NCBI GenBank assembly: GCA_020061125.1
Contig: JAGUYV010000434.1
Coordinates: 1-29,641, forward strand
Direction of reading: 5' to 3'
Source of the DNA: a bacterium
GTDB taxonomy: Bacteria > UBP15 > UBA6099 > DSWB01
Length of the DNA: 29,641 nt
Part shown: piece by piece, positions 548 through 28,079 of the stretch
Position numbering within the stretch: the stretch's first letter is position 1
Layout: each line of letters opens with the position of its first letter
The notes under the pieces: generated by a model
Told to the model about the DNA's origin: nothing
The model's database searches: none
What the model saw: the letters and a program-made list of their open reading frames with translations, nothing else
Position numbers and translations under genes: made by a program

Positions 548-2110
548 TCATTTGAGCAGCTTGAAATTCTTCAGCAGAGACAGCACGCCGCCCGCCTTGC
601 AGGACATGCCCTCGCAGAACAGGGCGTCGAACGCGGCTTTAAGTCCGCTGTACTTGGCTTCGGAGTAGGGATGCCACCAGATGTCGTGGGAGAGCATGCT
701 GCGGTGCGTGGTGATGTTTTTGATGCTGGTGTATTCGAGGAGTCCGTGCACGGAATGCGTGCGGCCGATGCCGCTCTCCTTGACGCCGCCCCAGGGCGCC
801 TGGGCGAACCCGTAGGTGATGAGGCAGTTGTTGATGGTGACCACGCCGGTATGAATTCGCCGCGCGATCTTTTTGGCCCTGGCCGCGTCTTTTGTCCACA
901 CGCTGGCGGTGAGTCCGTAGTCCGAGTCGTTGGCCAGTTCCACGGCTTCGTCTATGCCGGAAAATTCCATGATGGGCAGGGTTGGGCCGAAGGTTTCCTC
1001 GCGCATGCACTCCATGGAGTGGTTGGCGTTCAGAATAACCGTGGGCTGGTAAAAGTACCCGCCGAATGTGAGGATGCGATCGCCACCCGTGGCGATTTCC
1101 GCGCCTTTGGCGCGCGCGTCGGCCACATGCTTTTCCACAAGCGTGATGCGGTCCTCGCTGATCAGCGGCCCCATGTCCGTGGTGTGTTCGAGACCGTTTC
1201 CCACGCGCAGCGCCCTGGTCTTTTCCACTACTTTGTTGATGAAGCGCTGGGCCACGCTGTTGTGCACATACACGCGCTCCACGGATGCGCAGGTCTGGCC
1301 CGCGTTCACGAAAGCGCCCCACACGGCCGCGGCGGCTGCGCGGTCTATGTCTGCGTCGGGCAGCACGATGAACGGATCCTTGCCCCCGAGTTCCAGGGTG
1401 ATGGGAATGAGGGTTTCCGCGGCGCGCGCCATGAGTTGCTTGCCCACGGGCACGCTGCCGGTGAACACCACCTTGTCCGGCCGTGCGTCCATCATGGCGT
1501 TGCCGAGCACCGAGCCGGAACCCTGCAAAATCTGGAGCAACCCGTCCGGCAGGCGGCTTTCGCGGAACAAACGGCCGATGGCGTCGCCCACCCATGCTGT
1601 GAGGTTCGAGGGTTTCAGCACCACGGCGTTGCCAGCGAGCAACGCTGCCAGGATCTGCGTCATGGGTATTGCGAAGGGATAATTCCACGGAGAAATGATG
1701 CCCGCCACGCCCACCGGCTCGAACACATTGCCGCTCTCGATGCGCGCGATGGGAAAGATGGGATTGTTCAATTTCTCGCCGCGCAGGGCGCGCGCGCCGT
1801 CCGTGGCGATGAACCGGTACATGTCCAGCACGGGATAAATTTCCGCGGCCAGGGATTCGAGCAGGGTCTTGCCGTTGTCCAGGGTGATGATGCGCGCGTA
1901 TTCGTCAGTGTTTGCGAGCAGAAACTCCTTGCCGGCCATGAGACAGTCAAGGCGTTTCCTGACGCTCAAGGCGCCCCACTTGCGTTGCGCGGTGCGAGCC
2001 TGTTCGAATATGCCGGGAATGTCGCCCGGCGCCGTGGATTGGATTTCCGCGTTCACTTCAAGAGTGGCCGGGTTTATGGATTGAATCATGCGGCTGGTGT
2101 CTGCGGTCAT
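548..2110 (-). CDS. NAD(P)-dependent aldehyde dehydrogenase family protein
   Basis: Cytosolic ALDH-superfamily enzyme of 520 residues that oxidises an aldehyde to the acid. It has PWNYP (141-145), the cofactor lysine in KPSN (166-169), FTGSVPVG (216-223), the general base in LELGGKDP (E240), the nucleophile in GQTCAS (C274), and EETFGP (371-376). The start ATG at 2110 has a strong AAGGAGG about 8 nt upstream; an in-frame ATG seven codons later lacks such a site. The C-terminus is about 40 residues longer than a minimal ALDH (residues about 475-520, with HDIWWHPYSEAKYSG), as in some aryl/coniferyl-aldehyde dehydrogenase-like members. Substrate is not readable from sequence. The neighbouring korAB and nitronate monooxygenase-like genes suggest oxoacid or aldehyde catabolism, which is an inference. 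Confidence 0.93.
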   Translation of the reverse strand: MTADTSRMIQSINPATLEVNAEIQSTAPGDIPGIFEQARTAQRKWGALSVRKRLDCLMAGKEFLLANTDEYARIITLDNGKTLLESLAAEIYPVLDMYRFIATDGARALRGEKLNNPIFPIARIESGNVFEPVGVAGIISPWNYPFAIPMTQILAALLAGNAVVLKPSNLTAWVGDAIGRLFRESRLPDGLLQILQGSGSVLGNAMMDARPDKVVFTGSVPVGKQLMARAAETLIPITLELGGKDPFIVLPDADIDRAAAAAVWGAFVNAGQTCASVERVYVHNSVAQRFINKVVEKTRALRVGNGLEHTTDMGPLISEDRITLVEKHVADARAKGAEIATGGDRILTFGGYFYQPTVILNANHSMECMREETFGPTLPIMEFSGIDEAVELANDSDYGLTASVWTKDAARAKKIARRIHTGVVTINNCLITYGFAQAPWGGVKESGIGRTHSVHGLLEYTSIKNITTHRSMLSHDIWWHPYSEAKYSGLKAAFDALFCEGMSCKAGGVLSLLKNFKLLK

Positions 2111-2266: not shown

Positions 2267-3090
2267 CACGGGGGCGTTTGCGTGAAAGCGTTGACAAGGG
2301 GCGCGCCCGAGAGGATGGGGTGAGCGTCCTCGAACGCAGGGCGCGCGCCGCGGTATATCACACCCACGGGAATTTCGTCTCCCCATGTCATGGCCGCTGC
2401 CAGGGCCTGATCCCGGTCCCTCGGGTCGTGGTTTTTGGGCAATTCCTTGACGCGGTCCCGGTACCATTTGTAGGTATTCACCTTATTAAATGTCACGCAC
2501 GGTTGTAGGATGTCGAGCAACGCGAACCCTTTGGCGCGTATGGCCTCCTGCATCATGGTCTGGAGATGGTCCGGGATAACCGCGCTGCTGCGCGCCACAA
2601 AAGAAACGCCGAGCGTCACGGCCAGGGCCAGAGGGTTGAACGGCGCGGACAGTACGCCGTCCACCTGCACCTTGGTCACGAAGCCCGGCTCGGATGTGGG
2701 TGATGCCTGGCCCTTGGTGAGGCCGTACACCTGGTTGTTGTGAACGAATGCTTTGACGCCGATGTTGCGGCGCATGGCGTGAACGAGATGGTTGCCCCCC
2801 TCGCCGTACATGTCGCCGTCGCCGCTGGTGATTAGCACCAGGAGTTTCTTGTTGGCCATTTTAATGCCCGTGGCCGCGGGCAGGGCGCGGCCGTGCAGTC
2901 CGTTGAACACATTGGCCTTGGCGTAATGGGGCAGCTTGGCGGCCTGGCCGATGCCCGACACCAGCACGAGCCTGCGGCGATCCGTGCCCAGGGTGTCCAG
3001 AGCATGTTCCAGCGCTTCCAGGATGTGAAAATTGCCGCATCCCGGACACCACGCCGTTTCTATTGCGCTGTTCTCGTTTGCGCCGCTCAT
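2266..3090 (-). CDS. korB: 2-oxoacid:ferredoxin oxidoreductase, beta (thiamine diphosphate) subunit
   Basis: Beta subunit (274 residues) of a CoA-dependent 2-oxoacid:ferredoxin oxidoreductase. It carries thiamine diphosphate and contributes to the [4Fe-4S] site that passes electrons to ferredoxin. CPGCG (15-19) and a later PCVTFN supply cluster cysteines. The ThDP/Mg2+ motif is GDGDMYGEGGNH (90-101), followed by NNQVYGLTKGQASPT (118-132). The start ATG overlaps the korA stop as ATGA, and GGAGG lies 7 nt upstream, so the two are translationally coupled. The Kor-type motif set suggests 2-oxoglutarate or a related 2-oxoacid rather than pyruvate, but substrate is an inference. No separate delta (ferredoxin-like) subunit gene is adjacent. 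Confidence 0.93.
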   Translation of the reverse strand: MSGANENSAIETAWCPGCGNFHILEALEHALDTLGTDRRRLVLVSGIGQAAKLPHYAKANVFNGLHGRALPAATGIKMANKKLLVLITSGDGDMYGEGGNHLVHAMRRNIGVKAFVHNNQVYGLTKGQASPTSEPGFVTKVQVDGVLSAPFNPLALAVTLGVSFVARSSAVIPDHLQTMMQEAIRAKGFALLDILQPCVTFNKVNTYKWYRDRVKELPKNHDPRDRDQALAAAMTWGDEIPVGVIYRGARPAFEDAHPILSGAPLVNAFTQTPP

Positions 3091-4754
3091 GACAGGACCT
3101 CCGTTTCAATGAACTCGGCGGTGAAGGGCAGTCCATCGTAGCGGGGCAGGAGAGAAAACTCGCGCAGCGCGCCCGCCTGGCGCAGCAGCAGCGCGAACTG
3201 TCCCGTTCCGTTTCCCTCGACGGCGATCACGCGGCGGCCCTCGAAGAGCGGGGCGAGCGCCGCTCCGTCAAGAGGCCACACCATGGGAAAATGGACCATG
3301 CACACATCGCGGCCCCGTGCGCGTAGCAGGTTTACGGCCGCGCGGCAGGGGCCATAAGTGCTGCCCCAGCACAGCAGGATTTCTCCTGCTGGCTCGGGGT
3401 AGATTTCGGGCTTTATGAATTCGTTGAGGATGCCTGTTATCTTGCGCATGCGTTTATCTTGGAGCGCGATTTGCACATTGAAGTCCTCGGAGAGATGCCC
3501 GCCTTCCGCATGCATGTCCGACGCGGACACCACATAGGAATCGCCACCGGGCACGGCGCGTGGGGACACACCGTTGTCCGTCACCAGATAGCGTTCGTAC
3601 GCCTTGCCCGGAGCGGATTTCTTGGCCAGATGCAGATTGATGTAATCCGGCGCATCGGGCAGCGCGGGAATGTTTTTCTGAAGATCGGTCAAAAACTGAT
3701 CCGCAACAAGAATCACGGGGGTCTGGAATTTGTGGGCGAGTTCAAAAGCGTGGCGCGTGAGGTCGAACGCCTGCCGCAAATCGCCGGGCGCAAGGATGAT
3801 TTTGGGAAACTCGCCATGGCCCGCGTGTGCGGCGAAAGCCAGGTCGCCCTGGGCCGTGCGTGTGGGCATGCCCGTGGCGGGGCCGGGGCGCATGGACAGG
3901 AAAATGACGATCGGCAACTCCAGCATCCCGGCGAGGGACAGGCCTTCAGCCATGAGCGCGAACCCGCCGCCGCTGGTGGTGGTCATGGCCGGAACCCCGG
4001 CGAAAGCCGCCCCGCACAGCAGGTTCGGCGCAGCGATTTCATCTTCGGCCTGTTCCACCACCATGCCGTATTTGTGAGACAGGCCCGCGAGCGCGGTGAG
4101 CACGCCCGAGCTTGGCGTCATGGGATAACTGAACACGATCTTGACCCCGGCCGTGGCCGCGCCAATAGCAATGGCTGTGCTGCCGTCGTACAGCGTGGAG
4201 GGCGCTCCGGCGGGTTTTGGGGCGCGTACCAGTCCCTCGTGTCCGGCCACGGCTCGATACCCGCGTGAAGCCGCGTCAAGGTTCTGTTCCACGATGTCCC
4301 GGCCTTTTTTCGAGAATTCTTCAGTAAGGCATTTATGAAGCGCATCAAGGTCGTAGCCGAGCACGGAAACAACCGCTCCAGCGCCCGCGCTGTTGGCCAT
4401 GCGCGCCGTTCCTCCCGCAGCCTGGGCCAGCTTGTCCATTTGCAACGCCAGATAGTTTCCTCCGGATTCCGCCGTGTTCAGTATCATCACGCCGTTCAGG
4501 GCCAGATTGGCTTTTTCCTGCTCCATGGATTCCCGGTTGAGCGCCACGAGCAGATCGGTTTTTCGCGCGGATGAAAAAAGCTCTTCGGACCCGATGCGGA
4601 CATCGTAGCTGTTGATCCCGCCGCGGATGCGAGACAGGTAACTTTGCGTGGCGAACACATGCAGTCCCATGGACGCAAATGTTCTGGCAAGCAGATCGCC
4701 GAAGGATTGCACGCCCTGGCCAGCTGCTCCGCAGATGCGAATGTTGGTCGTCAT
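3087..4754 (-). CDS. korA: 2-oxoacid:ferredoxin oxidoreductase, fused gamma-alpha subunit
   Basis: The 555-residue protein joins a gamma domain (about 1-175, with GAAGQGVQ at 9-16 and SRIRGG at 41-46) to the catalytic alpha domain (about 185-555). The alpha domain has YPMTPSS (210-216), AEDEIAA (236-242), and RPGPATGMPTRT (289-300) of the oxoacid/CoA-binding region. With KorB it forms the cytosolic complex that decarboxylates a 2-oxoacid to acyl-CoA and reduces ferredoxin, or runs in reverse for CO2 fixation. I chose the ATG at 4754 because AAGGAG lies 6 nt upstream; a TTG two codons earlier has no proper site. It overlaps korB by 4 bases. A good promoter lies about 45-70 nt upstream. The fused gamma-alpha form is common in anaerobes. 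Confidence 0.93.
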   Translation of the reverse strand: MTTNIRICGAAGQGVQSFGDLLARTFASMGLHVFATQSYLSRIRGGINSYDVRIGSEELFSSARKTDLLVALNRESMEQEKANLALNGVMILNTAESGGNYLALQMDKLAQAAGGTARMANSAGAGAVVSVLGYDLDALHKCLTEEFSKKGRDIVEQNLDAASRGYRAVAGHEGLVRAPKPAGAPSTLYDGSTAIAIGAATAGVKIVFSYPMTPSSGVLTALAGLSHKYGMVVEQAEDEIAAPNLLCGAAFAGVPAMTTTSGGGFALMAEGLSLAGMLELPIVIFLSMRPGPATGMPTRTAQGDLAFAAHAGHGEFPKIILAPGDLRQAFDLTRHAFELAHKFQTPVILVADQFLTDLQKNIPALPDAPDYINLHLAKKSAPGKAYERYLVTDNGVSPRAVPGGDSYVVSASDMHAEGGHLSEDFNVQIALQDKRMRKITGILNEFIKPEIYPEPAGEILLCWGSTYGPCRAAVNLLRARGRDVCMVHFPMVWPLDGAALAPLFEGRRVIAVEGNGTGQFALLLRQAGALREFSLLPRYDGLPFTAEFIETEVLS

Positions 4755-8832: not shown

Positions 8833-10392
8833 TCAGAATGAGAACGATCTCGCGTCATTAGCCATGGTGAACACGGGAATGTCTCCCAGGGTTCCCGCGG
8901 CGTTGACTTCTTCAAGCCCGGCCGGGCTGACGGACCGGTACTGGAGTTTCACGGTTATGGTGATCTTCCCTTTTCGTGCGGGCATGGACACGCTCTCTTT
9001 GAGCGTGGCGCGCGGGGGGATGCGGTGATCCCGAGTTTTTTCCACCGCGTTCCAGAACTGTGTGGTGAACTGGCCCTGTGCGTTTTTCACCCAGGTGTAA
9101 TATAAAATAGGTTCGGGACTTGCGGCGATGTTTCCCTGCGCATCGAGTGCGCCGGAATGGAAGAACACCTTTCCAGAAGCGTCGGCCGCAGTGATTTCGA
9201 GCCACGCCTGCCGGATTTCCGTTACGCCCGTGGGGATGCTGTGCCCAGCGCCCTTGTTGGTCACATCCACCGTGAGTTTGAACGAACTGCCGTTCAGCGA
9301 CAGATCCGCAATCTTGACTTCTGCGGCGCTGCGCAGCAGCTTTTCGCTCAATGCGCGCAGTTCCGGCGCCTCTTTCACATTTTTGAAAAGCAGATTCGGC
9401 CCGGCGAAATAGTGCAGGGACACATGGCTGCGGTCCGGCCCGGACAGAGCGGCTTTGCCCGGGCTGGCCTCGAATTTGGTCAGGCCGCGCGACATGTGGC
9501 AATCCTGGCAGGTGACGCCCTCGGCCGCGTATGGCCCGTTCTTCCATTCCTTGTAAGTCGTTTCGAGCGGGATGCCGTTGCCCGGATGATCCACATCGTG
9601 GCAGTTGCCGCAGAACTCGGCGCTGGTGTGAAGTTTGGAATAGGCGGTTTCGTGAAAAGAGGACACGGCGTCCTTGAACGGCCCGTATTTCACATTTGAG
9701 CGCGTGACAACATAGCTCGCATTGCCCGGCTTGCCCGGTTTGCTGGAACTGATGCTGTGGCAGAAATCGCACTGCACGCCGTCCGACGCGATTTCCGAAA
9801 CCCTGGTGTCACCGATATTCTTAAGCGGTTGCGGGAACGGGATTTCCTTGTCCAGAACGCCTATGGGCGTGTGGCACGACGCGCAGAACACCTCAAGCTC
9901 TTTGCCGCTGTCCTGCGAGGCCTTGATAAAATAGGCGTCGTACAGGGGTTCGGAATGCGCGAGCGCATGCATGGAGTGGCGCCAGTGATTGAAATTCTGG
10001 TCGTGGCACGACCCGCATGTCTTTGCTGAAATGAATGCGTAGAAGCCGCCTCCAGCCCGGGATTCCGCAGCGCCGCCGCGCATGAAACCCGCCAGAGCCG
10101 TGATGTCTGCATCCGACAGGATTTGCGAGTACGCGGACATGACATGCACATTCTGGATGGCGTTCTTGAGGGATTCTGGCGTGGCTGCTCCCATTTTGTC
10201 CAAATCATGGCATGTGGAGCATTCCGCGTGCCACATTTTTGCGGGAGAAAAATTGCCTTTCTCATCCGCGTATATTGAGGGTTTGTTTTTTGACGGCTCG
10301 TGCCCGGAGCGGCACGAGGGCAGGGCGATAAGGCATGCGCCAAGCAAAATGGCGCATGGAACATTCAACGGGGTCTGCGCATGTTTTTTCAT
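8833..10392 (-). CDS. Hexaheme c-type cytochrome, probable periplasmic lipoprotein (cytochrome c554-like)
   Basis: A 519-residue exported cytochrome. The N-terminal signal is lipoprotein-like, with hydrophobic residues 11-26 and candidate lipobox Cys27 (LPSC). Six CXXCH heme sites are present: 58-62, 126-130, 170-174, 208-212, 261-265 and 295-299. The first belongs to a mono-heme cytochrome c domain (about 50-105); the other five form a c554-like multiheme block. Residues about 340-519 lack Cys and look like a beta-sandwich. Extra His residues are available as distal ligands. It should move electrons outside the cytoplasmic membrane; the redox partner is unknown. The start ATG at 10392 has a poor ribosome site. 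It is followed at 14 bases by the rubredoxin gene. Confidence 0.9.
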   Translation of the reverse strand: MKKHAQTPLNVPCAILLGACLIALPSCRSGHEPSKNKPSIYADEKGNFSPAKMWHAECSTCHDLDKMGAATPESLKNAIQNVHVMSAYSQILSDADITALAGFMRGGAAESRAGGGFYAFISAKTCGSCHDQNFNHWRHSMHALAHSEPLYDAYFIKASQDSGKELEVFCASCHTPIGVLDKEIPFPQPLKNIGDTRVSEIASDGVQCDFCHSISSSKPGKPGNASYVVTRSNVKYGPFKDAVSSFHETAYSKLHTSAEFCGNCHDVDHPGNGIPLETTYKEWKNGPYAAEGVTCQDCHMSRGLTKFEASPGKAALSGPDRSHVSLHYFAGPNLLFKNVKEAPELRALSEKLLRSAAEVKIADLSLNGSSFKLTVDVTNKGAGHSIPTGVTEIRQAWLEITAADASGKVFFHSGALDAQGNIAASPEPILYYTWVKNAQGQFTTQFWNAVEKTRDHRIPPRATLKESVSMPARKGKITITVKLQYRSVSPAGLEEVNAAGTLGDIPVFTMANDARSFSF

Positions 10393-20019: not shown

Positions 20020-20028
20020 AATCTATGG

Positions 20029-20034
20029 TAATAT
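20029..20034 (+). promoter_or_regulatory. Candidate -10 element for the secreted Ig-like protein gene
   Basis: TAATAT at 20029-20034 sits in an unusually AT-rich patch (about 20007-20060) right after the terminator and about 72 nt before the ATG. The -35 region is a T run with no clear match. Confidence 0.3.
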
Positions 20035-20105
20035 TTAATGTATATTCGGCGTTCATAATAATCAGACAGGCCGAAGCGTCCGGGGACATGTCAATGGAGG
20101 CTACA

Positions 20106-22484
20106 ATGGTTGGGAAACTCCAGCAAGCGTGCATACTGGCATTGGCGTTTATGGTTGTGATGTGCGGCGCGGCGGCCGCGCAGACCGGTTCGCCCCCGGG
20201 GGTGGAAAAGGGCTGGAATCTGGTGAGTTCGCCATGCGATGTCAGCCTTGACGAATTGCACCAGAAACTTGGCAACGATGAGATTCTGGTGTTCGCCTGG
20301 GACGGGCAGAGATATGTGCAGGCGAACGCCATGGAACGCGGCCGCGGCTACTTTCTGAACGACAACGCGATTCTGAACTCCTCCATCGTGTGCAAAAACG
20401 AAACGCCCCTGCCCGAGGGGTTCGCCGTGCAATTGCATGAGGGCTGGAATCTGATCGGCAATCCGTATCATCGTTCCATAACCTTCCAGAATGCATTCGG
20501 ATCCGCTGCCGATCTCATGGGCGCAATTTACGCCTGGCAGGGGAACAGGCTGCGGCTCCTGGACAGCTCGGACCACATGATCCCGTTCAGGGGCTACTGG
20601 GTCCATGCGCAGGCCCCGGCTTCGCTGTCCTTTGCAGAATTCAATCCGGACATCGGTCCGGGCGGGTACGATGTCAACTGCAATCCTTTTGTCATCAACC
20701 GTGTTATGCCCGCGAACGGAGCGGATGTGACCGAGGGAGACACCGTCATCCTTCAGGCCATGTGCACGGAAGCCGGACAGGAAACGGATGTGACCGCGGC
20801 CGCACTGTGGAGCGTGGACAACGAGTCCGTGCTCGTCCCGCGCGACGCTCCGGGCGAGTTCGGCGCCGCCGGCCAGGGTGACGCCGTAGTCATGGTCAAC
20901 TATCTCAACAACCTCGCTTATCTCGACATCGCGGTCATGAAATACACCAACCCCCTTGTGTCGCTGTCCCTCACTGCGGATAAAACCGCCCTCAACCTCG
21001 ATGAGACCGCAGCGTTAAAAGTCATTGGAACCTACAAGGACGGGACAACGAAAGACCTTTCATCACAGGCGCAATTCACGGTGACCGGTGATGCGGGCAT
21101 TGTGATAGACGGCGTTTTTGCCGCGTTGTCTGAAGGTTCCGCTTCCGTGACAGCGGCCGTGGACGGCGTGACCAGCAATTCCCTGGGTTTCACGGTCCGA
21201 AGTGTGGTCCTTGAAAAATTGCACATTGAAGCGGCGAGCGATGTGCTGGAGATTCACGAAACTACGGTCGTGCTTGCCAAAGCCACATACAATGACGGCT
21301 CCGTGAAATCGGTGACCGCGAATGTCGCATGGCAACTCAACCCCTCTGACGCCGCATCCATTGAAAAGAGCGGCCGGTTCAATCCTCTGAAGCTCGGCAC
21401 CGTGAATGTGTCGGCCACGCTCGACGGAATGCGCAGCAACACTCTGTCCATCAATGTCACGCCCAAAACTCTGCGCTGGCTCATGCCTTACAGCATTTAT
21501 GGTCTGGAGCCGCTTCCGTGTCCCACGGATCCGCGCCATACCTGGTGCTATACGCATGGCGCGCTCCGGATGGGCGAGGAGGGCAAGGTTGTCATTGGCG
21601 GAGAATTCGACAACGGCTCGACCCGGTACCTGCCCCCGCCATACAAATTCGAACTTTCTGACACGACGGTTTTGAACATCACCAGCGATGGCGTAATCAC
21701 GGCGCTCAAGCCGGGATTGTGCGGCATTCGCGCGTATGTGGACGGCGTGTACTCCGAATGGCTCTGGCTCATCGTTTACGAGCAGGACAAGCTCTCGAAA
21801 CACCTTCTCCTCGAATTCTCCAACGAGGAAACCATCGTGGAGAAGGGTCACTCCATCAACATCGGCGCCACATATTACGAAAAATCGCAATTTTCCAATT
21901 CGTTCATTTCGCATAATGTCACAAAAATCGCGAAATGGACTCTTGGCAACGGCGCCGTGGGGAGCATTTCCGAGGGCGTTTTCACCGGCGCCGCGGCCGG
22001 GCAGACCTCGGTGAGCGCTTCATTCAACGGCTTCACGAGCAACAGCACGGACCTGCGCGTGTGGGAGCCTTCCCACCTGGAATTCTGCGATCCCAACAAT
22101 CCCAATGAGCAGTCGTGGAACGACGGGTTGAGCGTGGCCACGCTCGAAACGAGCTGCCGGCAATATAATCCCGGCGAAACTGTGGATGTGTGCTTCAACG
22201 CGGAGCTGCGCAACGATGTGGAGCGCCGCGTGCTCGATGTGTGCATGGATCTGTACATCTATGACGAAAACCAGAATCTGGTGCGCACCTTCCAGGACAG
22301 AAATTGCAGTCCCGCACCCCTGTTCCGCCGCACCCAAGGGTATCACCCCGTGTACCAGTATTGCGCCGGATGGGACCGCAGGGACGACGGCGGCAACGCC
22401 GTTCCGCCCGGCAAATACACAGCCGTGGCGCGCTATTACATCCTGTACTGCCCGGTGCTCAAGGTGACATTCGAGATCAAATAA
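20106..22484 (+). CDS. Secreted protein with GWNL repeats, bacterial Ig-like (Big_2) domains and a FlgD-like C-terminus
   Basis: A 792-residue exported protein. The signal peptide is residues 1-25, with cleavage expected after AAA at 23-25. Next come two copies of a roughly 75-residue module beginning GWNLVSSP (36) and GWNLIGNPY (113), each ending in a GYF or GYW turn. Four or five Ig-like beta-sandwich repeats follow (about 195-277, 284-365, 368-452, 453-557 with an insertion, and 566-652), with recurring D-G-x-T/S-K and G-x-A-x-V-T/S-A elements as in Big_2. Residues about 688-792 resemble FlgD-type Ig domains (WDRRDDGGNAVPPGKY). The ATG at 20106 has GGAGG 5 nt upstream; the upstream in-frame extension is not signal-like. 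It is probably a cell-surface or matrix adhesin. No membrane anchor or sorting signal is recognised. Confidence 0.85.
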   Translation: MVGKLQQACILALAFMVVMCGAAAAQTGSPPGVEKGWNLVSSPCDVSLDELHQKLGNDEILVFAWDGQRYVQANAMERGRGYFLNDNAILNSSIVCKNETPLPEGFAVQLHEGWNLIGNPYHRSITFQNAFGSAADLMGAIYAWQGNRLRLLDSSDHMIPFRGYWVHAQAPASLSFAEFNPDIGPGGYDVNCNPFVINRVMPANGADVTEGDTVILQAMCTEAGQETDVTAAALWSVDNESVLVPRDAPGEFGAAGQGDAVVMVNYLNNLAYLDIAVMKYTNPLVSLSLTADKTALNLDETAALKVIGTYKDGTTKDLSSQAQFTVTGDAGIVIDGVFAALSEGSASVTAAVDGVTSNSLGFTVRSVVLEKLHIEAASDVLEIHETTVVLAKATYNDGSVKSVTANVAWQLNPSDAASIEKSGRFNPLKLGTVNVSATLDGMRSNTLSINVTPKTLRWLMPYSIYGLEPLPCPTDPRHTWCYTHGALRMGEEGKVVIGGEFDNGSTRYLPPPYKFELSDTTVLNITSDGVITALKPGLCGIRAYVDGVYSEWLWLIVYEQDKLSKHLLLEFSNEETIVEKGHSINIGATYYEKSQFSNSFISHNVTKIAKWTLGNGAVGSISEGVFTGAAAGQTSVSASFNGFTSNSTDLRVWEPSHLEFCDPNNPNEQSWNDGLSVATLETSCRQYNPGETVDVCFNAELRNDVERRVLDVCMDLYIYDENQNLVRTFQDRNCSPAPLFRRTQGYHPVYQYCAGWDRRDDGGNAVPPGKYTAVARYYILYCPVLKVTFEIK

Positions 22485-22876: not shown

Positions 22877-23452
22877 TCAGTCAAGGGGCGCCGTGGCGAG
22901 AGGCGTGTAAACAGCGCCGCGCGGGTCCAGTTCGCTCTGGAACAATACCACGCGCCGCACCGGAAACCGCATGTGCGGAACCTGGGAATCGAGAATGGTC
23001 TGCGAGACCGGAGCGGGATCGCGGAACCGGGCCAGGGTGAGGTGCGCACGGAACGGCCGGTTTTCCTGCGTGAATCCGAGTCCGGCCATTGCGCTCTCGA
23101 TGCGCCGGTGCAGAGCGGCGCAGGCGTCTGTGCCGCCGGACAATCCCGCCCAGAGCACGCGCGCCTTGCGCGGATTGGGGAACGCTCCGAGTGCGTCCGT
23201 GGCGAGTTCGAACGAACCGGTTTGCGAGGCCGCGGCTTGCATGGCGTGGGAAATGTCCGGAATGATTTCCGCGGGCGTGTCTCCAAGAAATTTGAGTGTG
23301 AGGTGCATGGAATCCGGCTTGACCCACCGGGCGGCGCACAAATCGCTGGCCAGGGCGCGGCCGGTTTCATGCAGCGCATCCCGGACATCGCGCGGCAATT
23401 CCACGGCCATGAAACAGCGGATGGTATCAGATGCGGATGGCAACGACGACAT
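22877..23452 (-). CDS. thpR: RNA 2',3'-cyclic phosphodiesterase (LigT/ThpR family)
   Basis: A 191-residue 2H-phosphoesterase that opens 2',3'-cyclic phosphates on RNA ends. The two catalytic HXTX motifs are HLTLKF (H50) and HLTLAR (H137), with the family N-terminus IRCFMAVELP (11-20) and WVKPDSMH before the first. Normal length is about 180 residues; the extra ten N-terminal residues come from choosing the ATG at 23452. An internal ATG at 23410 would cut the first strand. The gene begins inside the last codons of the RSH gene (26-base overlap), so translation is probably coupled. The ribosome site is weak. Confidence 0.92.
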   Translation of the reverse strand: MSSLPSASDTIRCFMAVELPRDVRDALHETGRALASDLCAARWVKPDSMHLTLKFLGDTPAEIIPDISHAMQAAASQTGSFELATDALGAFPNPRKARVLWAGLSGGTDACAALHRRIESAMAGLGFTQENRPFRAHLTLARFRDPAPVSQTILDSQVPHMRFPVRRVVLFQSELDPRGAVYTPLATAPLD

Positions 23453-25598
23453 CCTTGAGGCTCAAGATTTGGGATTCGATGGAAGAGAGCATGGACGCAT
23501 CGGCGATTTCGAGAATGACTTCGATCATTTCCAGACCGTCCACGGAATGCGCGTCCGCCTTGATGGTCACGAAACGCGCGTTGTTTTCGGTTATGGTTTC
23601 ACGGATTTTTCGGTGCGTGTCTTCCTGGTGGAAGACTTTGAGCCTAAGGCGCACCGGGAAGAAGGTGTTCTGCACCTGGCCCCATGATACAGTGGATTTT
23701 CTGGACCAGAACGCGCGGCGGGACAGCGTCCGGCAGTCCATGCGGTGCAACATGTTCTTGCGTCCCGAGGTGCGCATGACAATGGCGTCACCGGGCACAG
23801 GAGAGCAGGATTCGCAGATGTGCACGGGACCGCGGAACGGTTTGTCGGATGTGATGGTGTTTGCATCGTAGGCGCGCGCGAACACCGGGTGTGACGGAAT
23901 CAGGGGCAGCATCTGTTCGGGAGAGAGCATCGCCGAGCGTTTGCGCTGGGCGCGCAGGGCGCTGATCGCGTCTTCGATTCCGATTTCCCCGTATCCGATG
24001 GCTTCATAGAATTCGTTGAGGCTCTTCATCTGCAGGAATTCGGCAACCGGGAATATCAGGGCCTCGAGTTCCCCTGCTTGTCCCGAATGAACAAGGCCGA
24101 TGCGGCTCACGGCTTCCGTGAGATGTTCGCGCCCGTCATTGCGTGCGTGCTCGCGTGATCGTTCCTTGAGCCTTTGCATGATACACGACCGCGCGTAAGG
24201 GGTGCGCACGAACGAAAGCCATTCCACTGCCGGTGAAGCGTCCGGGTCCGTGCGGATTTCCACCTTGTCGCAGCTTCGCAGCCTGTAGCCGATGCTCACG
24301 GGGCGGGTGTTGACCACGGCGCGCTTGAATTGATCGGCCGTGTTGCGATCCAGGTGGTAGGCGTAATCCAGAACCGTGGATTCCGGCGGCAGGGAGATGC
24401 GATCCTGCTTTTCCGTGATCACGAATATTTCATTGCGGAAAAGGTCCGATGTCATGTATTCCACGGCGGACGGTTCGCCCTGGGCTCTCATCCTGTGCAT
24501 GATGTCGTGGATTTCCGAGAGGCGTTTCTGCAGGAAATCCGTGCGTTTGAGCTTGGACGGTTCGGACAGATAGGGAATGATGCCGCGCCTGTTCACATCG
24601 TGCATTTCCTCGGTCATGACGCGGATCTTGAATGGCACGCCGCGGTCGTGCACGCGGGTTTCGAGCCAGCGCTTGATGTCCGCGGTCTCGAATTGCAGGT
24701 GGTCGTCGAAACTGCCCTTGAGGTGTTCGTACAGGGAATGCACCACGCCCAGGGCCGGGTAGCATTCAGAATCGTCGTTGACGACCACGGTGAGGAAGCC
24801 CGAAAGCATCTCGCCGCTTAAGGGAGCGGCGTTCATGCATTCGTCGTGGAAATGAGCCAGGTTGTAGTCCGTGCGCACGATGCGGCTGCTGATGCCCGCA
24901 TCGCACATGGCCTGGTGCAGCGCGGCGCCCGCTCGGGTGAAAAACGGTTCTTCCTTTTCATGCGCGTATGCAAAGGCTTCTTCGGCGTGCAGGAAGCCTT
25001 CCTCGTTCATGAACTTGAGCACTATGTCTTCGTAGGCGTCCTTGACATCCTTCATGCCCAGGAACCGCGCCAGGGGGATGAAAATTTTCTGGGTTTCCAC
25101 GCAGTTGTTGATCTGTTTCTGCCTGGGAAGGTGGCGCAGGGTGTGCATGTTGTGCAGGCGGTCCGCGAGTTTGATGATGGCTACGCGGATGTCGCTGGCC
25201 GCGGACAGAAAGATCCGGTGGTGGTAGGCGGTGTCCGCGTCCACATCGGTCTTGAGTTCGAATTTGCGCAGCTTGGTTACGCCTTCAATCAGAAACGAAA
25301 CCTCGTCCTTGAAAGTGGCGTGGAGTTGGTACTCGCTGATTTTGGGATCTTCTATGACATCGTGCAGGATGCCCGCGGCGATGGTGGCGCCGTCCATGCG
25401 CCAATCCACCAAGGTTTCGGCTACGGCGATGGGGTGGATGATGGCCGGTTCGCCGCTCATGCGCAGCAGGCGGATGCGTTTGAAACTGCCGGCCGTGAAT
25501 TCGTAGGCGCGCCGAATGAGATCGAGATCCCCTTCGGAGAGGTATTCCGACCCTTTGGCGATGATGTGCTCGAGGCTGTCTTTGAAGACAACAGGCAA
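23427..25598 (-). CDS. RelA/SpoT homologue (RSH) with intact (p)ppGpp hydrolase motifs and degenerate synthetase domain
   Basis: A 723-residue long-form RSH. The hydrolase HD domain (about 20-190) keeps its metal and catalytic residues: IIHPIAVAE (H55), LHDVIEDP (H79, D80, E83, D84) and KLADRLHNM (D146). In the region that should be the synthetase (about 225-345), RxKxxxS, the D-x-x-A-x-R-V strand and YxSLHT are missing, while the framework ECYPALGVVHSLY and KIRVMTEEMH remains. A TGS domain (about 391-455), a Cys-containing region with SCSPVPGDAI and LHRMDC, and a C-terminal ACT-like domain (about 650-723) follow. So it probably only degrades (p)ppGpp, a SpoT-like role. The start codon is TTG at 25598; an in-frame stop lies upstream and no ATG fits. 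Confidence 0.88.
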   Translation of the reverse strand: MPVVFKDSLEHIIAKGSEYLSEGDLDLIRRAYEFTAGSFKRIRLLRMSGEPAIIHPIAVAETLVDWRMDGATIAAGILHDVIEDPKISEYQLHATFKDEVSFLIEGVTKLRKFELKTDVDADTAYHHRIFLSAASDIRVAIIKLADRLHNMHTLRHLPRQKQINNCVETQKIFIPLARFLGMKDVKDAYEDIVLKFMNEEGFLHAEEAFAYAHEKEEPFFTRAGAALHQAMCDAGISSRIVRTDYNLAHFHDECMNAAPLSGEMLSGFLTVVVNDDSECYPALGVVHSLYEHLKGSFDDHLQFETADIKRWLETRVHDRGVPFKIRVMTEEMHDVNRRGIIPYLSEPSKLKRTDFLQKRLSEIHDIMHRMRAQGEPSAVEYMTSDLFRNEIFVITEKQDRISLPPESTVLDYAYHLDRNTADQFKRAVVNTRPVSIGYRLRSCDKVEIRTDPDASPAVEWLSFVRTPYARSCIMQRLKERSREHARNDGREHLTEAVSRIGLVHSGQAGELEALIFPVAEFLQMKSLNEFYEAIGYGEIGIEDAISALRAQRKRSAMLSPEQMLPLIPSHPVFARAYDANTITSDKPFRGPVHICESCSPVPGDAIVMRTSGRKNMLHRMDCRTLSRRAFWSRKSTVSWGQVQNTFFPVRLRLKVFHQEDTHRKIRETITENNARFVTIKADAHSVDGLEMIEVILEIADASMLSSIESQILSLKDVVVAIRI

Positions 25599-25765: not shown

Positions 25766-27052
25766 TTACAGCTTTTTGAGCGCCGCGGCGGCAGCCTTGT
25801 GTGTGGCGCGAATATCGTCCCATGAATGCGCCGCGGACACGAAGTTGGCCTCGAACTGGGACGGCGACACATACACGCCGCGCTTGAGCATTTCGTGGAA
25901 GTATTTTGCGAACCGTTTGGTGTCGCACTTTTTCGCGGATGCGAAATCCGTGACCGGTTCCGTGGTGAAGAAAATCGTGAACATGGATCCGACGCGGTTG
26001 ATTATGACCGGAACGCCTGCATTGCCGGCCGCACCCTGGATTTCATCGCACAGAAATTCGGCCTTTTGCTCTATTTGTTTGTATACGGATTTGTTGGCGA
26101 GACGGCTCACGGTGGCGATGCCCGCGGCCATGGCCACGGGATTGCCGCTCAATGTGCCAGCCTGGTACACAGGCCCAAGGGGCGCGATTTTGTCCATGAT
26201 GTCCGCGCGGCCTCCGTAAGCGCCCACGGGCATACCGCCGCCGATGATTTTCCCGAGGCAGGTCAGATCGGGCGTGACGCCGAAAAGACCCTGCGCGCCG
26301 GTGAACCCGGCCCGGAATCCGGAAATGACTTCGTCAAAAATCAGCAGAGCGCCCGCGGCGGTGCATTCTTTGCGCAGGCCTTCGAGGAACCCCGGCGCAG
26401 GCGGTACAACGCCCATGTTTCCGGCGATAGGCTCCAGAATTACGCATGCGACTTTGTCCTTGTGCTTTTTGAACGCATTCTTCACGGCCCCGAGGTCATT
26501 GTACGGCAGCACAATGGTTTCCTTGACAAACGGAGCGGGCACGCCCGCGCTGTCCGGTATGCCGAGCGTGGCCACGCCCGAACCGGCGCCGGCCAGCAGA
26601 AAATCCGCGTGCCCGTGATAGCAGCCGTCGAATTTGATGATGCGCGTGCGGCCCGTGAATCCGCGAGCGAGCCGGATCGCGCTCATCGTGGCTTCGGTCC
26701 CGGAACTGACAAAACGCACCTTTTCCATGGACGGCAGAGCCTTGCACAGCATGGTCGCCAGGCACTCCTCGGCCGCGGTCGAGATGCCGAAGCTCATGCC
26801 TTTGTCCGCCGCGCGCTTGACCGCCGCCACCACGCGCGCGTCCGCATGGCCCAGAATCAGCGGTCCCCACGAGCAGCAGTAATCAATGTATTCCCGCCCG
26901 TTTTCGTCCGTGAATTTCGAGCCTTTGCCGTGTTTCACGAAAATGGGATCCCCGCCCACGGACTTGAATGCTCGCACCGGGCTGTTGACTCCGCCGGGGA
27001 TGACCTTTACGGCCTTTTCATAGATTTTTTTGTTCATGTTCACGGATGCCAT
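25766..27052 (-). CDS. hemL: Glutamate-1-semialdehyde 2,1-aminomutase
   Basis: A 428-residue PLP enzyme that converts glutamate-1-semialdehyde to 5-aminolevulinate in the C5 route of tetrapyrrole synthesis. It has PGGVNSPVRAF (19-29), SSGTEATMSAIR (116-127), DGCYHGHAD (142-150), DEVISGFR (240-247), the PLP lysine in CLGKIIGGGMPVGAYGG (K268), and GTLSGNP. The ATG at 27052 has AGGAG 8 nt upstream; the longer open frame overlaps hemB and is not protein-like. It lies 43 bases after hemB and is the last gene of the operon, before a GC-rich terminator. The matching glutamyl-tRNA reductase gene (hemA) is not in the window. Confidence 0.97.
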   Translation of the reverse strand: MASVNMNKKIYEKAVKVIPGGVNSPVRAFKSVGGDPIFVKHGKGSKFTDENGREYIDYCCSWGPLILGHADARVVAAVKRAADKGMSFGISTAAEECLATMLCKALPSMEKVRFVSSGTEATMSAIRLARGFTGRTRIIKFDGCYHGHADFLLAGAGSGVATLGIPDSAGVPAPFVKETIVLPYNDLGAVKNAFKKHKDKVACVILEPIAGNMGVVPPAPGFLEGLRKECTAAGALLIFDEVISGFRAGFTGAQGLFGVTPDLTCLGKIIGGGMPVGAYGGRADIMDKIAPLGPVYQAGTLSGNPVAMAAGIATVSRLANKSVYKQIEQKAEFLCDEIQGAAGNAGVPVIINRVGSMFTIFFTTEPVTDFASAKKCDTKRFAKYFHEMLKRGVYVSPSQFEANFVSAAHSWDDIRATHKAAAAALKKL

Positions 27053-27095
27053 GATGAAATCTCCTGGATCATGTGTGGATTGCAGTTCAGCGTTT

Positions 27096-28079
27096 CTATT
27101 CCACCAGCCATTTGGCGGCGTCTGTGGCCCAGTAGGTGATAATGATGTCCGCGCCCGCGCGGCGCATGGCCGTGAGCATTTCCAGAGCCACGGCGCGTTC
27201 GTCGGCCCAGCCGTTTCTGGCGGCGGCTTTGACCATGGAATATTCGCCCGATACATTGTATGCGGCCAAGGGTTGCTCGAAGTTCCGGCGCATCATGGAG
27301 ATGACGTCAAGATAGGCGAGGGCTGGCTTGACCATGATAATGTCCGCGCCTTCCTGAATGTCGAGAGAGGTTTCTATCAGGGCCTCGCGCGCGTTTGCGG
27401 GATTCATCTGATACGCTTTGCGGTCACCCTTGCCCGGCGCCGAATGTGCGGCCTCGCGGAACGGGCCGTAGAAAGCGGATGCGTATTTTGCGGAATAACC
27501 CATGATTACGGTGTTCTTGAACCCTTTGCCGTCCAGGGCGTCGCGGATGGCGGCGACCTGGCCGTCCATCATGGCGCTGGGGGCCACGATGTCCGCGCCC
27601 GCTTCGGCGTGGGACGCCGCCATTCTGCCAAGAAGCGCGGCGCTGGGGTCGTTGTCCACATCATCACCCTTGAGAATGCCGCAATGCCCGTGGTCCGTGT
27701 ATGCGCACACGCACACATCCGTGGCCACGACCAGTTCCGGAAGGTTCTTTTTGAGCGCGCGCACGGCCTGCTGCACGATTCCGTTTTTGGATGTGGCTTC
27801 GCTTGCTTTGGCGTCCTTGGATTTGGGGAGACCGAACAGCAACACGGACGGCACGCCGCGCGCATATGCTTTTTCCGCTTCCTGCACGATGTTCTCCACA
27901 GACAGGTGAAACACGCCGGGCATGGAGGATACCGGCTCGCGCACATTCTTTCCGTGGCACACGAACAGGGGATACATGAGATTGGCGGCGCAAAGGCTTG
28001 TTTCGCTTACCATGCGGCGCAGGCCTGCTGTGCGGCGCAGGCGCCGGGGCCGGCATTCGAGGTCGAAAGGCAGGGACAT
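27096..28079 (-). CDS. hemB: Delta-aminolevulinic acid dehydratase (porphobilinogen synthase)
   Basis: A 327-residue enzyme that condenses two 5-aminolevulinate molecules to porphobilinogen. The active-site lysines are in GYSAKYASAFYGPFR (K198) and IMVKPALAYLD (K251, Schiff base). The metal site VCVCAYTDHGHCG has C123, C125 and C133, so this is the zinc-dependent type. FPLFV-like N-terminal elements (MYPLFVCHG) are typical. The ATG at 28079 has GGAGG 7 nt upstream and lies 13 bases after the cobA/hemD stop, so the genes are co-transcribed. Product flows to uroporphyrinogen III through HemC (not seen) and the HemD domain next door. Confidence 0.97.
   Translation of the reverse strand: MSLPFDLECRPRRLRRTAGLRRMVSETSLCAANLMYPLFVCHGKNVREPVSSMPGVFHLSVENIVQEAEKAYARGVPSVLLFGLPKSKDAKASEATSKNGIVQQAVRALKKNLPELVVATDVCVCAYTDHGHCGILKGDDVDNDPSAALLGRMAASHAEAGADIVAPSAMMDGQVAAIRDALDGKGFKNTVIMGYSAKYASAFYGPFREAAHSAPGKGDRKAYQMNPANAREALIETSLDIQEGADIIMVKPALAYLDVISMMRRNFEQPLAAYNVSGEYSMVKAAARNGWADERAVALEMLTAMRRAGADIIITYWATDAAKWLVE

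Follow-up and report, generated by a model that had tools for sequence, protein, structure and literature searches.

Rsh[Hs] of a UBP15 bacterium, probably the hydrolase-only partner in a pair of long RelA/SpoT homologues with reciprocal specialisation

Locus and domain layout

We describe a gene for a long RelA/SpoT homologue (RSH) in a bacterium of the candidate phylum UBP15 (GTDB lineage UBA6099; DSWB01). The window, which is the whole stretch of DNA that was analysed, comprises 29,641 nucleotides (contig JAGUYV010000434.1, assembly GCA_020061125.1) and belongs to a metagenome-assembled genome of 4.1 Mb that is 79% complete. The features of the locus are listed below in window coordinates, with residue numbers of the protein.

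22877..23452, minus strand: gene for a thpR-like LigT/2'-5' RNA ligase family phosphoesterase, overlapping the end of rsh by 26 bases
23427..25598, minus strand: rsh, gene for a long, putatively hydrolase-only RSH (Rsh[Hs]; 723 aa, TTG start, stop at 23427-23429)
25053..25502, minus strand: HD hydrolase domain, residues 33-182 (Pfam HD_4 and residue census, 8/8)
25347..25364, minus strand: HDVIED, residues 79-84, the hydrolase motif H-D-x-x-E-D
24564..24986, minus strand: pseudo-synthetase, residues 205-345, with the fold of a nucleotidyltransferase and 0/14 catalytic positions
24855..24875, minus strand: RTDYNLA, residues 242-248, occupying the place of the ATP-binding GRxKHxYS in the alignment
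24657..24680, minus strand: DIKRWLET, residues 307-314, aligned exactly with the G-loop NMYQSLHT
24249..24428, minus strand: TGS domain, residues 391-450 (Pfam)
24348-24350, minus strand: D417 of the TGS domain, replacing the His that reads the CCA end (E. coli RelA H432)
23727..23813, minus strand: zinc-finger region, residues 596-624, reading SC..PGD..H...C, in which the CC pair lacks its first Cys
23433..23669, minus strand: ACT/RRM domain, residues 644-722 (Pfam ACT_4)
25766..27256, minus strand: gene for a hemL-like class-III aminotransferase, upstream of rsh at a distance of ~170 bases

The TTG start site is supported because relatives of the gene have ATG at the identical codon (MPV...). 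The protein has the layout of a long RSH, with HD, synthetase-fold, TGS and C-terminal ACT domains in a chain of ~700-750 aa. Three Pfam families matched above their cut-offs (HD_4, 100 bits; TGS, 37 bits; ACT_4, 28 bits). RelA_SpoT, at 22.1 bits, stays below its cut-off (27 bits), yet the match lies in the correct place and has the right fold. The NCBIfam model TIGR00691 (spoT_relA) matched residues 45-720 with 366 bits (E 3.4e-109); although this does not reach the curated cut-off of 499.2, the sequence comparison marks the protein as a clear RelA/SpoT homologue.

An AlphaFold2 model of the protein had a mean pLDDT of 81 and a pTM of 0.55, with values below 50 at the pseudo G-loop; the domain packing of the model is uncertain, and a compact tau-state lies outside what it supports. 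The best match of the predicted structure in the PDB was the full-length hydrolase-only SpoT of Acinetobacter baumannii (7qpr; E 3.5e-34), and for the N-terminal half of the model S. aureus Rel was a match, at 2.4 A.

The neighbourhood of rsh[Hs] was compared with that of its orthologues in six relatives of the same order. The LigT/thpR-like gene lies directly after rsh[Hs] in 6/6 genomes with readable downstream DNA and is the sole LigT match in each of the six, and thpR was not found beside any of 73 other RSH loci having upstream DNA. The order rpoZ-spoT of E. coli does not occur at rsh[Hs], which has hemL upstream and thpR downstream. No hem genes were found next to rsh[Hs] in the relatives, which give no support to co-transcription of hemL and rsh. 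Scans for promoters and terminators at the locus gave results no better than chance, and the folding of a hairpin after hemL was no better than that of shuffled sequences. Elsewhere, the window encodes a protein of 819 aa (20025-22484, plus strand) that is probably secreted, contains repeated Ig-like segments and could not be assigned to a Pfam family with confidence. It also has a 519-aa open reading frame (8836-10392, minus strand) that weakly matches the outer-membrane cytochrome domains of MtrC/MtrF.

Hydrolase residues and the pseudo-synthetase

Catalytic residues were counted in an alignment of ~130 RSH sequences, using the numbering of Bacillus subtilis Rel. All eight hydrolase residues tested (R44, H53, H77, D78, E81, D82, D144, N148) are identical in the window protein, in agreement with the original prediction that its HD motifs are complete. 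None of the 14 synthetase residues is identical (R241, K243, S247, D264, R269, K297, K304, N306, Y308, S310, H312, E324, Q326, R328; 0/14); these include the residues that bind metal (D264 and E324) and stack on guanine (Y308), as established for RelSeq. The prediction had further placed RTDYNLA and a stretch around DIKRWLE where RxKxxxS and YxSLHT would be expected, with the neighbouring EMH kept, and the alignment confirms these assignments (residues 242-248, 307-313 and 331-333, respectively). Since the G-loop aligns without indels (PNMYQSLHT in Rel, ADIKRWLET in the window protein), the synthetase motifs are replaced and not shifted, and the outcome named beforehand as speaking against the prediction, catalytic motifs that are shifted but present, is ruled out. 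A frameshift or assembly artefact is likewise ruled out by the open frame, the lack of a match in a second frame and six concordant relatives; a six-frame search of the whole genome found no second or out-of-frame RelA_SpoT match at the place of rsh. The TGS and ACT-like regions remain as predicted, according to Pfam, whereas the Cys region is only partly kept: its CC has become xC, and the later His and Cys are still present. The residue-level alignment thus supports the view that the protein selectively lost synthesis and kept hydrolysis, and we infer its catalytic activities accordingly from sequence.

Continued production of (p)ppGpp or a related nucleotide by a rearranged active site is extremely unlikely. 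The nucleotidyltransferase fold and several framework residues (Y280, H287, F297, D299, G320) are retained, but the equivalents of D264, E324, Y308 and the ATP-binding Arg and Lys are all gone, and no alternative catalytic set is conserved, the only invariant acids of the domain being E216, D299, D307, E313 and E331.

Purifying selection acts strongly on the pseudo-synthetase, whose dN/dS within the genus g3 ranges from 0 to 0.048 (omega ~0.04), as low as that of the HD domain. In all four divergent lineages of the order, the G-loop N-x-Y-Q-x-x-H-T has become D-x-K-R-x-x-E-T, and D307, K309, R310, E313 and T314 are invariant; three of these positions are N, Y and H in 103/103 of the other RSH sequences. 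The degree to which invariant residues cluster at the pseudo G-loop was reached by 1215/10000 shuffles (12%) and is not significant alone. The argument for repurposing therefore rests on the fixed new residues at the N, Y and H positions, and the pseudo G-loop is a lead and not proof of a new site.

Mere decay, in which the synthetase domain would be a redundant, roleless remnant heading for loss, would fit the disappearance of every catalytic residue and the much lower conservation of this domain across families (invariant columns among four lineages, 21/141 in the synthetase and 77/160 in the HD domain). We consider it improbable, as every relative has the domain at full length, without decay by indels, its dN/dS is ~0.04 or less within one genus and the identical replacement is fixed in four divergent lineages. 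The pseudo-synthetase instead has the appearance of a domain retained for regulation or as a scaffold. A more specific and rather speculative suggestion is that the dead pocket has been rebuilt as a lineage-specific regulatory site, whose invariant and highly charged D-x-K-R-x-x-E-T might bind a ligand or partner or lock a hydrolase-on state and so control ppGpp breakdown, possibly tied to RNA repair via the adjacent ThpR-like enzyme.

The partner enzyme and the origin of the pair

If synthesis was lost from the window protein, (p)ppGpp must be made elsewhere in the genome, as the original prediction had stated. The genome search that it proposed found both kinds of candidate, namely, on contig C81, a second long RSH whose synthetase is intact and, on contig C19, a small alarmone synthetase. 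The long RSH on C81 retains 13/14 synthetase and 2/8 HD residues and is thus a separate, putatively synthetase-only enzyme (Rsh[hS]) in the same genome as Rsh[Hs]. Its single synthetase change puts D in the place of K297, which is also the case in E. coli RelA; the surrounding motif reads TFDD in the C81 protein and EFDD or EFDN in the Rsh[hS] of relatives. RelA has an EXDD motif and bifunctional enzymes have RXKD (PMC3153485), so that the mostly ExDD-like motifs of UBP15 Rsh[hS] are a likeness to RelA.

The small alarmone synthetase (363 aa; L043, positions 834-1925, minus strand; RelA_SpoT 76 bits) lies beside transketolase genes and matches the PADLOC candidate defence family PDC-S33 (68 bits). 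It stands in a stretch of 32% G+C on a contig otherwise of ~57-65% G+C, was not found in the six other genomes of the order and is probably a recent acquisition.

The six relatives encode an orthologue of Rsh[Hs] at 36-41% identity, with 8/8 HD and 0-1/14 synthetase residues, and the pair of Rsh[Hs] and Rsh[hS] is present in 7/7 genomes of the UBP15 order of UBA6099, with the gene of Rsh[hS] broken by contig ends in two of them (G005 and G006; the part missing from G005 includes most of the HD domain). No other HD_4 proteins were found besides the pair in the seven genomes; as the window genome is 79% complete, further RSHs may be missing from it. Contamination of the genome bin is ruled out by recurrence of the pair in the six other genomes. 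The dead HD residues of Rsh[hS] vary among genera, and D144 is lost throughout (N, A, S, A), a pattern as would be expected if the loss was shared and drift came later. The residue patterns of both proteins support the view that the order shows complete reciprocal subfunctionalisation.

The gene order around Rsh[hS] is recJ-apt-rel. Among the other RSH loci with upstream DNA (n=73), recJ flanks 55 and apt flanks 32, and the gene of Rsh[hS] therefore keeps the ancestral rel site; rsh[Hs] sits at a locus apart from it.

In phylogenetic trees, Rsh[Hs] and Rsh[hS] each form a monophyletic clade with full support. For the C-terminal domains, a tree uniting the two clades improved on the unconstrained quick tree by 19 log units (p-AU 0.87), which is compatible with duplication inside the lineage, and we infer that the pair arose there from one bifunctional Rel. 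A weak grouping of Rsh[hS] with gammaproteobacterial RelA was also recovered, at a support of 88-94. The value is 99 in the quick tree of full-length sequences, where the dead HD domains of both may attract each other. Given this grouping, one copy may have a horizontal origin.

Horizontal acquisition of Rsh[Hs] as a relative of the hydrolase-only SpoT of Moraxellaceae, in place of an independent loss, would account for the same loss pattern, and AU tests keep a clade of Rsh[Hs] and A. baumannii SpoT (p 0.52 for the C-terminal columns, 0.57 for the HD columns). We nevertheless regard it as very improbable. In quick trees of the HD and C-terminal columns, A. baumannii SpoT is placed with the other proteobacterial SpoTs with starred support, and Rsh[Hs] lies apart from that clade; Rsh[Hs] is present order-wide; the G-loop replacements differ (DIKRWLET in Rsh[Hs], GGNQSLMI in A. 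baumannii); and the following gene is thpR in UBP15 and a RidA family gene in A. baumannii. Because of gene order, distribution and the different replacements, the loss in UBP15 Rsh[Hs] is likely to be independent of that in Moraxellaceae SpoT, although the trees, with AU values of p ~0.5, do not prove it. In the NCBIfam SpoT equivalog PRK11092, the window protein scored 264 bits and missed the cut-off of 947.

Proposed mechanism and comparison with known systems

In this UBP15 order, two long RSHs have very probably specialised reciprocally, and Rsh[Hs] is the one restricted to hydrolysis. Its HD domain would remove the 3'-pyrophosphate from (p)ppGpp, and its pseudo-synthetase, by analogy with A. 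baumannii SpoT, would keep its fold, be unable to bind ATP or GTP and act as a scaffold or regulatory domain. In E. coli RelA, H432 intercalates in the CCA end of the tRNA (PMC4974054); the corresponding position of the TGS domain is D, D, G or S in UBP15 Rsh[Hs] and His in all Rsh[hS]. Lacking this tRNA-reading His, Rsh[Hs] should escape being switched off by starved ribosomes, and (p)ppGpp would be supplied by Rsh[hS], which keeps the synthetase and the His and has a dead HD domain. The loss of the His in one protein and its retention in the other therefore favour a hydrolase that is constitutive and blind to the ribosome, working alongside a synthetase that ribosome and tRNA activate.

Several known systems share part of this arrangement. 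The small alarmone hydrolases Mesh1 and RelH resemble Rsh[Hs] in hydrolysing (p)ppGpp with an HD domain only, but are without the synthetase, TGS and ACT domains, all three of which Rsh[Hs] retains. In E. coli, RelA[hS] and SpoT[HS] are also duplicated long RSHs, one with a dead HD domain and an ExDD-type synthetase; SpoT, however, retains 14/14 synthetase positions and the TGS His, and Rsh[Hs] neither. Bacteroides finegoldii encodes two long RSHs, Rel and RshB. The HD domain of RshB (L163, 156-2372; HD 2/8, synthetase 13/14) is degraded, and this protein is comparable to Rsh[hS] and looks synthetase-only (the label in the 2011 census is [HS]). The Rel of B. finegoldii is bifunctional by residues (HD 8/8, synthetase 12/14), so that specialisation there would be one-sided, unlike in UBP15.

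Among the ~130 aligned RSH sequences, on which rarity is judged here (a PF04607 survey of 242 genomes omitted the tail of weak matches), the sole other RSH of the [Hs] type is A. baumannii SpoT. Two further sequences were seen with an intact HD domain and fewer synthetase residues. A long RSH on plasmid p1 of Streptomyces sp. BHT-5-2 (L166, 251-2236; synthetase 11/14) is possibly another enzyme losing synthesis, and an IMG/VR contig filed as viral (L154, match 3001-4386) encodes an RSH with 8/8 HD and 8/14 synthetase residues.

In the literature consulted, complete subfunctionalisation into [Hs] and [hS] enzymes is described for a single family, Moraxellaceae, with SpoT[Hs] and RelA[hS] (PMC3153485, PMC9974481). 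In A. baumannii SpoT, the inactive pseudo-synthetase is a regulatory domain of a compact monomer, the CCA-reading His of the TGS domain is lost and hydrolysis proceeds without ribosome control (PMC9974481). The Moraxellaceae SpoT[Hs] (7qpr) and UBP15 Rsh[Hs] are alike in their intact HD domain, folded dead synthetase, lost TGS His and synthetase-only partner. They differ in that Rsh[Hs] has ~20% identity over the structural alignment, belongs to another phylum, lies at a locus with a thpR neighbour and has its dead motifs replaced differently, by the lineage-fixed D-x-K-R-x-x-E-T, and in that its partner retains the canonical recJ-apt-rel locus. By its residues, the UBP15 pair thus appears to resemble the Moraxellaceae pair, while the identity of Rsh[Hs] as SpoT proper lies beyond the evidence, given the missed equivalog cut-off, the other locus and the position outside the SpoT clade in quick trees. 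The pair is apparently a separate instance of a full split of a bifunctional stringent-response enzyme into a synthetase and a hydrolase that each work one way, fixed across an order of a candidate phylum, in which the side changes recur (loss of the TGS His in the hydrolase; D for K297, mostly of the ExDD type, in the synthetase). Such a second instance makes the evolutionary rules of the split testable by comparison, and Rsh[Hs] provides, beside the SpoT of Moraxellaceae, a second and distant pseudo-synthetase for asking what the dead domain does.
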